DNA of 50,571 nucleotides, from NCBI GenBank assembly GCA_937877715.1, contig CALEHW010000061.1:1-50571 (forward strand), given 5' to 3'. The translations under genes and the position numbers were made by a program. Position 1 is the stretch's first letter. Each line of letters begins with the position of its first letter. The notes under the pieces are model-generated. The model saw nothing but the letters and a program-made list of their open reading frames with translations, was not told the DNA's origin and made no database searches. Shown piece by piece: positions 8,441 through 27,682 of this stretch. The stretch comes from an uncultured Methylophaga sp. (GTDB lineage: Bacteria > Pseudomonadota > Gammaproteobacteria > GCF-002020875).

Positions 8441-9268
8441 GTGACTGGCACACTCTACATCGTAGCAACTCCAATAGGAAATCTGGGAGATTTTTCCCTG
8501 CGCGGGCAGCAGACCCTTGCTGAGGTCGATCTGATTGTTGCGGAGGATACCCGCCACAGCCGCCACCTGCTTAACCATTTTGGTATCAACAAGCCGCTGC
8601 TCTCAATGCATGAGCATAATGAGCTGGGGCGGGTTGATTCCCTGGTAGAGAGAATGTTATCTGGTGACTCCATCGCCCAGATCAGTGACGCGGGAACACC
8701 GTTGATCAGTGACCCCGGTTATCTGCTGGCACGTGGAGCCCGAGAGGCGGGGATTCAGGTCACAGTGGTGCCCGGTCCCAGCGCCCCCATTGTTGCACTC
8801 GCACTCTCCGGACTGCCAGCTAGCCATTTCAGTTTTGAGGGTTTTCTGCCGTCACGCAGCGGCCCCAGGGAACAGCTTCTACGAGATCTTCTGGGGGAGA
8901 CGCGCACCATGATATTTTTTGAGTCCCCACGCAGGGTGGTCGATTCACTGCGCTCCATGGAGAGGATTTTCGGCCCCTCCAGAGAGGTTTCTGTTGCCAG
9001 AGAGCTGACCAAGCTCCATGAGTCGGTTCATACGGCACCACTGGGTGAGTTGCTCAGATGGATAGAGGAGGAGCAGAACAGGCAGCGTGGCGAGTTTGTC
9101 TTGGTTGTAAAGGGGGCAGATGAGGAGAGCCAGGAGGAGGAATTGGTAGAGGCATATCGTATCGTAGAGTTGTTGGCTCGTGACCTTGCCCCACGCAGGG
9201 CAGCGGCTGTTGCGGCGGAGATCACCGGGGTGAGAAAAAACCTGCTCTACCGTTCACTGCTGGAGTGA
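8441..9268 (+). CDS. rsmI: 16S rRNA (cytidine(1402)-2'-O)-methyltransferase
   Basis: RsmI, 275 aa, methylates the 2'-O of C1402 in the decoding centre of 16S rRNA using S-adenosylmethionine. The tetrapyrrole-methylase-like fold is shown by the N-terminal GTLYIVATPIGNLGDFSLR, AEDTRHSRHLLNHFGI, ISDAGTPLISDPGYLL, and VVPGPSAPIVALALSGLP. GTG is the start codon; the family start pattern M(S/T)GTLYVVATPIGN supports it. RNase P RNA begins only about 15 nt after the stop. Confidence 0.95.
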   Translation: MTGTLYIVATPIGNLGDFSLRGQQTLAEVDLIVAEDTRHSRHLLNHFGINKPLLSMHEHNELGRVDSLVERMLSGDSIAQISDAGTPLISDPGYLLARGAREAGIQVTVVPGPSAPIVALALSGLPASHFSFEGFLPSRSGPREQLLRDLLGETRTMIFFESPRRVVDSLRSMERIFGPSREVSVARELTKLHESVHTAPLGELLRWIEEEQNRQRGEFVLVVKGADEESQEEELVEAYRIVELLARDLAPRRAAAVAAEITGVRKNLLYRSLLE

Positions 9269-9283
9269 AGTAATATTACACAC

Positions 9284-9652
9284 GGAAGTCGGCTAGACAA
9301 CCGCTGTATTCATCTGAATATAGAGGAAAGTCCGGGCTCCGCAGAGCAGAGCGCCAGGTAACGCCTGGGAGGTGAAATTCTTTAGAGATATAAGCCTATG
9401 GAGAGTGCCGCAGAAAATATACCGCCTACGTACGAATTTCGTGCCGGTAAGGGTGAAAAGGTGCGGTAAGAGCGCACCGCACAACAGGTAACTGTTTGTG
9501 GCAGGGTAAACCCCGTTCGGAGCAAGACCAAATAGGAGAGTTACAGGAGCTGCTCGCTCTGCTCTCGGGTAGGTCGCTTGAGGTGTGTGGTGACATGCAT
9601 CCCAGATGAATGGTTGTCCTAGACAGAACCCGGCTTATCGGCCGACTTCCAC
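9284..9652 (+). ncRNA. rnpB: RNase P RNA, bacterial class A
   Basis: The catalytic RNA of RNase P, which matures tRNA 5' ends. The 5' end (GAAGTCGGCTAGACA) pairs with the 3' end (GGCCGACTTCC). Universal core segments are present in order: GAGGAAAGTCCGGGCTCC, CAGGTAACGCCTGGG, GGGTAAACCCCGTTCGGAGC followed by AAGACCAAATAGG, and ACAGAACCCGGCTTATCGG near the 3' end. The length, about 370 nt, fits class A. A TAATAT -10-like box ends 7 nt before the 5' end; no clear -35 is visible inside the end of rsmI. The ends are approximate by a few bases. Confidence 0.96.
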
Positions 9653-9856
9653 CTTCTGCTCCCTTGTTGCCCCCCTTTGAGGCTATTCAGTGGTTTCTGC
9701 ACAATGAGCATTGCCAATTCGCATATTGCCTATCTTAAAGAAGAAAATTGGATATTACCCCAACCACATGAAAAACAAGAGTATCACTGCCTTATGATCA
9801 CCATTGAACAACTGATGTAACTCTCTGTTGTGATGTGACTTTTTTCCATTTTTTGG

Positions 9857-9884
9857 TTGATATTGGAAAAAAGTGGCGTATAGT
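9857..9884 (+). promoter_or_regulatory. Predicted sigma70-type promoter of ftsZ and the dcw cluster
   Basis: TTGATA (9857-9862) and TATAGT (9879-9884) are separated by 16 nt, a good match to the sigma70 consensus. Transcription would start near 9891, giving a leader of about 50 nt before ftsZ. The -10 box is embedded in the TGGNN repeat array described separately. No comparable promoter fits in the 17 nt between ftsZ and mraZ, so this is the likely main promoter for ftsZ and the genes behind it. Confidence 0.6.
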
Positions 9885-9908
9885 GGGGATTTGTGGGATG
9901 TGGTGGAT
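9874..9908 (+). promoter_or_regulatory. Predicted MraZ-box array (four 10-bp-spaced repeats)
   Basis: Four five-base repeats, TGGCG (9874), TGGGG (9884), TGGGA (9894) and TGGAT (9904), lie exactly 10 bp apart, each separated by 5 nt. MraZ of E. coli is known to bind TGGGN repeats with 5-nt spacers at the mraZ promoter. The middle two repeats match fully and the outer two partially. The array overlaps the -10 box and the predicted transcription start, so bound MraZ should block RNA polymerase. Here it precedes ftsZ, not mraZ. Confidence 0.65.
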
Positions 9909-9941: not shown

Positions 9942-11111
9942 ATGATGTTTGAAGAGGTAGTCGATGCATATGCAGATAACGCAATTATTCGTGTTATCGG
10001 TGTTGGGGGTGCTGGAGGCAATGCTCTTGAGCACATGGTTGAATCAGAGATTGCTGGGGTTGAATTCATCTGTGCAAATACCGATGCCCAGGCCTTGGGG
10101 AGATCATCAGCTGATACGGTCATTCAAATTGGGTCACAGACAACCAGAGGTCGTGGCGCAGGGGCGCGTCCATCCATTGGTCGTGACTCAGCCCTTGAGG
10201 ATCGTGAGCGTATTAGGGAGTTAATTGATGGCACAGAGATGCTCTTCATTACTGCTGGCATGGGCGGTGGTACAGGCACTGGAGCGGCACCAGTTGTGGC
10301 TGAGGTTGCCAAGGAGATGGGTGTATTGACTGTTGCTGTGGTAACCAAACCATTTACCATGGAGGGCCCTAAAAGGATGGGCGCAGCCATGGATGGTATT
10401 GATGAGTTGAGTAAGCATGTTGACTCCATCATCACCATCCCTAATGAGAAATTGATGAGTGTATTCGGTCCAGATATGACACTTATGGATGCATTCCGTG
10501 AGGCGGATAGCGTACTGCGTGGGGCGGTACAGGGCATTGCCGAATTGATTACTCGCGACGGGATGATCAATGTGGACTTCGCTGATGTGAAAACGGTGAT
10601 GTCAGAGATGGGTATGGCGATGATGGGAACCGGTTCCGCAACAGGAGAGGATCGAGCTGCCAAGGCAGCAGATGCTGCACTACACAGTCCGTTACTCGAG
10701 GATGTTGACCTGCAGGGCGCCCGCGGTGTTCTGGTTAACGTGACCTCAGGATATGATCTGACTATGGGTCAGTTCAACGAGGTTGGTACAGCGGTCCGTC
10801 AGTATGCTTCAGAGGATGCAACAATCGTGATTGGTGCAGGCTTCGATCCTGATATGAATGATGAGATCCGAGTTACCGTGGTGGCGACCGGGTTGGGCAG
10901 CATATCTGCAGAGGAGGTCATATCCCAGAGACCAAAGCCAACCCTGGTTGAGGCCAAACGTACCGGAACCGATGGCTATGTCGTTGGTGGTGATGTTGAT
11001 TATCCAACCTATAAACGCCAAGGTGGCGAGACAGCTGGCTCCCCTGCAGCACCGGTGGCAGATGAGGAGTATCTGGATATACCTGCCTTCCTGAGAGCAC
11101 AGGCCAACTGA
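9942..11111 (+). CDS. ftsZ: Cell division protein FtsZ, at the head of the dcw cluster
   Basis: The tubulin-like GTPase that forms the cytokinetic Z ring, 389 aa. The GTP-binding domain shows GVGGAGGNA (about 20-28), the tubulin signature GGGTGTG (108-114) and the T7-loop region NVDFADV (about 210-216). The C-terminal domain has GVLVNVTSGYDLTMGQFNEVG. A linker of roughly 60 residues leads to the conserved tail DIPAFLRAQ, which binds FtsA, ZipA and ZapD. Everything expected of the active main-chain FtsZ is present. ATG codons occur at 9942 and 9945 behind GAGGGGTGA. Normally ftsZ follows ftsA; here it lies between rnpB and mraZ, 17 nt before mraZ and behind the predicted MraZ-controlled promoter. 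No second ftsZ or remnant lies between ftsA and lpxC. Confidence 0.97.
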   Translation: MMFEEVVDAYADNAIIRVIGVGGAGGNALEHMVESEIAGVEFICANTDAQALGRSSADTVIQIGSQTTRGRGAGARPSIGRDSALEDRERIRELIDGTEMLFITAGMGGGTGTGAAPVVAEVAKEMGVLTVAVVTKPFTMEGPKRMGAAMDGIDELSKHVDSIITIPNEKLMSVFGPDMTLMDAFREADSVLRGAVQGIAELITRDGMINVDFADVKTVMSEMGMAMMGTGSATGEDRAAKAADAALHSPLLEDVDLQGARGVLVNVTSGYDLTMGQFNEVGTAVRQYASEDATIVIGAGFDPDMNDEIRVTVVATGLGSISAEEVISQRPKPTLVEAKRTGTDGYVVGGDVDYPTYKRQGGETAGSPAAPVADEEYLDIPAFLRAQAN

Positions 11112-11128
11112 TCATGTTGGAGTGAGCA

Positions 11129-11566
11129 ATGTTCCGGGGTAACAAGACAGTCAGTCTCGACAGCAAGGGGAGGATCTCAATCCCTGCCCACTATCGTGTG
11201 CGTCTGTTGGGCAGTTCTGGGGGTAAGGTGGTGGTTACCCCCAACTTCCGTTTCGCATGTCTCGATATCTACCCACTATCTGAATGGGAGGGGGTGGAGG
11301 AGCAGATTGGAAAGCTGGCCGGTAGCCAACAGGCAAAATTGCGCCGCGTTGTTATTGGCCGCTCCCTGGAGTGTGAACTGGATGGTAGTGGCAGAATTCT
11401 CCTGAGCCAGGAGCTACGTGATCATGCCAATCTGGAGAGGATAACAGTGCTGGCCGGGGTCGGCTTCAAGATGGAGCTATGGGATGAGGGTGCCTGGAGC
11501 AGGATATCTCAGCCAGAGGAGTTGAGCGAGGAAGATTTGAGTCTTCTCCAGGATGTCTACTTCTGA
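11129..11566 (+). CDS. mraZ: Transcriptional regulator MraZ
   Basis: MraZ, 145 aa, is a DNA-binding repressor of the dcw cluster with two SpoVT/AbrB-like half-domains. The first contains DSKGRISIPAHYR and the second DGSGRILLSQELR; in the second the usual Pro of the LP motif is Ser. It starts with the typical MFRGN. GGAG lies 6 nt upstream of the ATG. The gap to ftsZ is only 17 nt and holds no MraZ box, so mraZ is probably read from the promoter upstream of ftsZ and would repress itself from there. It overlaps rsmH by 14 nt. Confidence 0.96.
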   Translation: MFRGNKTVSLDSKGRISIPAHYRVRLLGSSGGKVVVTPNFRFACLDIYPLSEWEGVEEQIGKLAGSQQAKLRRVVIGRSLECELDGSGRILLSQELRDHANLERITVLAGVGFKMELWDEGAWSRISQPEELSEEDLSLLQDVYF

Positions 11567-27529: not shown

Positions 27530-27611
27530 TATCCACACAGAAACTGCTTGATTTCGCAGCTGATTATCCCTTAGAATCAAGTTATGTCGAAAAAGTGTCT
27601 TTTTTATGCGC

Positions 27612-27640
27612 TTGTATTCAATAGATTGCTTGCGTATAAT
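27612..27640 (+). promoter_or_regulatory. Predicted sigma70 promoter of lpxC
   Basis: TTGTAT (27612-27617) and a consensus TATAAT (27635-27640) are separated by exactly 17 nt, 42 nt before the lpxC start. The spacer is A/T-rich. It fills the gap where ftsZ normally stands and would let lpxC be transcribed independently of the dcw cluster. Confidence 0.75.
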
Positions 27641-27682
27641 ACGACCTTATTAACGAGAAGTCTAAAATAATATCCAATATCG

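Follow-up and report, generated by a model that had tools for sequence, protein, structure and literature searches.

Which promoter and which regulator govern ftsZ when this gene stands at the front of the dcw cluster? Few gene orders are as well conserved in bacteria as that of this cluster, which puts mraZ at the start and ftsZ at the end; in its canonical gammaproteobacterial form it begins with mraZ and closes with ftsA-ftsZ-lpxC. The window analyzed here, a stretch of 50,571 nucleotides that is contig C61 of a 1.89-Mb draft genome (G000) rated 99.8% complete, departs from this configuration, with ftsZ as the first gene. The genes and elements concerned are the following.

8441-9268, forward strand: rsmI
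9285-9653, forward strand: rnpB (RNase P RNA, class A; Rfam RF00010, 318.6 bits), the ancestral upstream neighbour of mraZ
Between 9653 and 9942: the rnpB-ftsZ intergenic region, 288 bp, which holds the promoter and the TGG array
9854-9906, forward strand: putative MraZ-box array of six TGG at a 10-bp pitch (9854, 9864, 9874, 9884, 9894, 9904)
9857-9862, forward strand: -35 hexamer TTGATA, adjoining box 1 (TGG at 9854)
9879-9884, forward strand: -10 hexamer TATAGT, whose final T also begins box 4
9942-11111, forward strand: ftsZ, 389 aa (TIGR00065, 417 bits), start at 9942 or 9945
11112-11128, forward strand: ftsZ-mraZ gap, 17 nt, with neither array nor promoter
11129-11566, forward strand: mraZ, 145 aa (TIGR00242, 112.6 bits), the only mraZ in the genome
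11553-27529, forward strand: rest of the dcw cluster (rsmH, ftsL, ftsI, murE, murF, mraY, murD, ftsW, murG, murC, murB, ddl, ftsQ, ftsA)
27530-27682, forward strand: ftsA-lpxC gap, 153 nt, the place of ftsZ in other gammaproteobacteria, from which ftsZ is absent here

The gene at the front is the only ftsZ of the genome, in which a single PF00091 match was found. Its product matches the family above the cut-off and ends in DIPAFLRAQAN, thus retaining the DIPAFLR peptide; the FtsZ starts of relatives match the second ATG, at 9945, not the one at 9942. From rsmH to ftsA the genes follow one another with gaps of -19 to +48 nt.

Upstream of ftsZ, the sequence TTGATA-N16-TATAGT at 9857-9884 is the best promoter-like site on the forward strand from rnpB to mraZ, with 10 of 12 positions matched, the next best reaching 9 of 12 at 9768-9798. 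The distance from the end of the -10 to the ATG at 9942 is 57 nt. A preliminary description of this DNA had placed four TGG repeats with an exact 10-bp spacing over this promoter; the promoter and the pitch were borne out, whereas the count was too low, since there are six boxes and they span 9854-9906. When the 288-bp intergenic region was simulated 100,000 times under a first-order Markov model, no run exceeded 4 boxes, and another 100,000 simulations, of the 91 GT-rich bp of the locality, gave 5 at most; six did not occur in either set. Within this genome, the four-box pattern occurs here and at one further isolated place, C19:6078, and in the congeners it occurs before ftsZ with at most one isolated site each. 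An MraZ operator usually lies directly upstream of mraZ, a matter of context that binding does not require, and here the 1.17-kb ftsZ lies between the two. Its other marks are present, namely at least three direct repeats of the TGG(G) type at a 10-bp pitch (six here, 4-6 in congeners) and linkage to the dcw promoter in a fixed phase with the -10.

The arrangement is shared by the genus. The taxonomic order comprises six genomes (G000-G005), all of one genus and all fragmented drafts, and the order rsmI, rnpB, array with promoter, ftsZ, mraZ, rsmH was found in all five with an intact region (the window, G001, G003, G004 and G005), which bears out the conserved spacing in relatives that had been proposed as a check; in G002, the end of ftsZ lies directly before mraZ and the contig stops inside ftsZ. 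The FtsZ proteins of four congeners are 73-84% identical to that of the window. When the species are aligned without gaps, with the -10 as anchor, their promoters and arrays are 60-81% identical, vs 23-41% just upstream. If k gives the distance of a box from the final T of the -10, in units of 10 bp, then TTGNNN-N16-TATAGTGG with boxes at k = -1, 0, 1 and 2 is present in all five intact genomes, and in two species the boxes reach k = -3, adjoining the -35. The -35 itself varies among the five genomes (TTGATA, TTGAAT or TTGCAA) at the same N16 distance. The longer G runs seen in some boxes are not conserved in the genus; the TGG phase alone is. At the other end of the cluster, three congeners (G005, G003 and G001; loci L127, L128 and L129) carry response-regulator-like or other genes and no lpxC within 1.5 kb after ftsA, so that the 3' end of the cluster has broken up in them.

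We compared this element with the mraZ upstream region of E. coli and with 29 more from other families of the class, 30 in all. At least three TGG at a 10-bp pitch were found in 23/30, as against 14 of 15,000 shuffled sequences, and in 17/30 the -10 is exactly TATAGT, followed by TGG at k = 1 and 2 and usually also at 3. Among these 17 TATAGT-type promoters, a box at k = 0 is present in three and one at k = -1 in none. In a scored promoter search, the offset from the first TGG to the end of the -10 equals 9 modulo 10 in 5/5 genomes of the genus and in 18/23 of the other arrays, where about 2 would be expected (binomial p of about 2e-14, with the loci treated as independent). The -10 stands 59-66 nt from the start codon of ftsZ in the genus and 48-93 nt, mostly 56-67, from that of mraZ elsewhere, and rsmI-rnpB lies directly before mraZ in 12 other families. 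The pattern TATAGT-N9-TGG-N7-TGG leading into ATGTTYVRN was found in 41 genomes among 369 of the class; four of these 41 are genus members in which it leads into ATGTTTGA (FtsZ, MFE), and outside the genus no ftsZ-like start was seen behind it in the 31 of 37 matches whose third codon is visible. The mra promoter is strikingly constant in its -10 (TATAGT) across the Gammaproteobacteria, with the MraZ boxes locked in a 10-bp phase. In a locus of another family (L029, in G006), an array of six boxes occupies the stretch between 97 and 47 nt upstream of mraZ; the contexts of its TGG are weaker, and its phase relative to the best promoter match is a different one.

Because the -10, the box phase, the distance to the start codon and the rnpB flank are those of the mraZ promoters of other families, the comparison strongly supports reading the element before ftsZ as the ancestral mra promoter and operator (Pmra) in its ancestral place, with ftsZ now in the first-gene position. 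The preliminary description had proposed just such an insertion of ftsZ between Pmra and mraZ, and the fixation of the arrangement in the genus adds to its support. The comparison also gives a precise ancestral proteobacterial Pmra that can serve annotation: TTGACA-N17/18-TATAGT, with TGG boxes at +10, +20 and +30 from the last T of the -10. In the genus, the -35 is weaker than the ancestral one and the spacer is 16 instead of 17-18.

The repeats could in principle be something other than MraZ sites, such as GT-rich sequence arisen by chance, a G-quadruplex or sites to which another regulator binds, and the GGGG and GGG runs in boxes 4-5 of the window would suit such a reading. Targeting of a G-quadruplex has reportedly been examined with regard to the mraZ promoter of S. 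aureus; here we rejected this reading, given the lack of conservation of the G runs in the genus. With the same type of array before mraZ in 23 of the 30 compared loci, and with the one MraZ of the genome encoded beside the array, we regard the whole class of non-MraZ explanations as very improbable.

We then considered how ftsZ may have reached this position and how rare the position is. In the best 80 named genomes by FtsZ match, ftsA lies directly upstream of ftsZ except at two loci (L064 and L088), where the DNA ends just before ftsZ, and no ftsZ was found upstream of mraZ in the available flanking DNA of the mraZ loci of other families. A search of the 369 class genomes with a junction pattern allowing gaps of up to 30 nt found no ftsZ-mraZ junction outside the genus; the pattern is blind to longer gaps and misses that of G001 (about 44 nt), therefore this absence applies to tight junctions. 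A literature search found no published description of ftsZ before mraZ. In the tree of FtsZ as in that of FtsA, the genus comes out as one group at the end of a long stem, with its sister left open. The simplest history is therefore the move of a native gene, in which the single ftsZ would have passed from behind ftsA to between Pmra and mraZ in an ancestor of the genus. Replacement of ftsZ by a foreign gene is a less simple alternative, of which the two trees give no sign. The stem of the genus measures 1.63 changes per column for FtsZ and 0.92 for FtsA, which suggests a fast evolution of the division proteins.

Given that the ftsZ-mraZ gap is only 17 nt long and that no other good promoter lies between Pmra and mraZ, both genes are expected to be under the array. 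The preliminary description was right that the gap is free of boxes, and it was mistaken in having the array control ftsZ instead of mraZ. Extra promoters that a sigma-70 scan does not see are possible. The encoded MraZ has two PF02381 matches (MraZ, AbrB-like domains), is related to the solved MraZ structures 1n0e and 9qlr, and keeps the DxxxR motif in both halves (DSKGR and DGSGR, in an alignment with E. coli MraZ). We propose that RNA polymerase would start at Pmra a few nucleotides past TATAGT (at about 9891) and produce a transcript running from ftsZ through mraZ, rsmH and ftsL onward, and that MraZ, made from the second gene, would bind the TGG array as a ring-shaped oligomer taking consecutive boxes on one face of the helix. 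The boxes are one helical turn apart, therefore the contacts would fall on one face, which fits a ring-shaped oligomer. Bound MraZ would block the entry of the polymerase, as boxes lie in the spacer between the -10 and -35, downstream of it and, in some species, at the -35; the supply of FtsZ would thus be set by negative feedback through the second gene of its own transcript.

Much of this regulation has precedents. E. coli MraZ represses Pmra from repeats downstream of the -10 (PMC7761207). The E. coli Pmra resembles the element described here in being a sigma-70 promoter with TGGGN-N5 direct repeats at a 10-bp pitch, and AGTGGGAAATTGTGGGGCAAAGTGGG stands before mraZ; it differs in having three boxes, downstream of the -10, and mraZ as first gene, whereas here ftsZ takes that place and the boxes run back across the spacer as far as the -35. 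The repression reported for E. coli MraZ covers 11 genes, from mraZ to murC, and does not include ftsZ, the last gene of the cluster there. The PmraBc promoter of Burkholderia cenocepacia has, as here, a putative MraZ site at a 10-bp pitch (four 7-nt repeats with 3-nt spacers), and a fragment with those repeats was bound by MraZ in EMSA; there too, as we propose here, the operon has ftsZ among its genes and a single promoter for all of them (PMC7761207), but ftsZ comes late in the transcript, toward its 3' end, and the repeats are downstream of the -10, over the start site. In Mycoplasma genitalium and M. gallisepticum, MraZ represses the mraZ-mraW-MG_223-ftsZ operon, ftsZ included, through AAAGTG[T/G] repeats, and ftsZ goes up in M. 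genitalium when mraZ is deleted (PMC8475190). These organisms are wall-less, with a reduced cluster in which mraZ is first and ftsZ last. Thus neither the boxes nor autoregulation by MraZ is new, and operons containing ftsZ are already known to be under its control (Mycoplasma, PMC8475190; implied in Burkholderia, PMC7761207). We found no precedent, however, for ftsZ in this place in the gene order, for a captured promoter that keeps its phase and leader length, or for an operator that reaches across the promoter; as far as we found, these features are new.

The sign of the regulation is less certain, as dcw expression in Neisseria elongata falls when mraZ is lost. Were MraZ an activator at this same Pmra, FtsZ would rise with MraZ in a positive loop. 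The N. elongata dcw genes, down upon mraZ deletion and up upon overexpression (PMC9395523), as well as a -35 weaker here than the ancestral TTGACA, are compatible with it; on the other hand, an oligomer bound over the spacer, the -10 and the start region should occlude the polymerase, and the MraZ proteins of E. coli and Mycoplasma repress, for which reasons we consider activation quite unlikely. Gene order may also have drifted neutrally, with Pmra kept as the promoter of the cluster, a minor role for MraZ and FtsZ controlled after transcription. In E. coli the loss of mraZ has no evident phenotype (PMC8475190), and for B. cenocepacia, where ftsZ lacks its own promoter, control after transcription was suggested (PMC7761207). 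Yet the boxes were kept in exact phase while their flanks diverged, and the box at k = -1, in 5/5 genomes of the genus, is in 0/17 of the TATAGT-type mraZ promoters; both suggest selection on binding and make drift, in our judgement, unlikely.

We therefore favour repression, and think it likely that ftsZ moved between Pmra and mraZ and that MraZ, binding over the promoter, represses the transcript that begins with ftsZ, mraZ and rsmH; binding, repression and transcript structure are what we infer. The supply of the Z-ring and its regulator would then probably share one feedback switch. With somewhat less assurance, we suggest a rewiring fixed in the lineage: its single ftsZ would have become the target of MraZ nearest the promoter, on one transcript with the Z-ring supply first and the repressor second and behind an enlarged operator that straddles the whole promoter. 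FtsZ dosage would in this way be under a closed autoregulatory loop, no longer coupled to ftsA at the other end of the cluster. Since ftsZ, and no other gene, was moved to the front under an MraZ operator, this natural lineage is a ready experiment on whether the position in the dcw cluster sets FtsZ dosage, whether FtsZ and FtsA need to be encoded side by side and whether the supply of the division ring is the main target of MraZ.

Two further FtsZ-like proteins were considered as a second functional FtsZ in the congeners and rejected, both consisting of the GTPase domain only and being encoded away from the dcw cluster. The one of G004 (L131:2320-3291, on contig C28) has 323 aa and is 33% identical to FtsZ; it carries a hydrophobic segment at the N-terminus, and its FtsZ GTPase domain was matched by Pfam Tubulin at 5.5e-19. 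That of G002 (L132:658-1413, reverse strand, on contig C186) has 251 aa and is 25% identical to FtsZ; its gene lies about 2 kb from that of a large multi-receiver histidine kinase.
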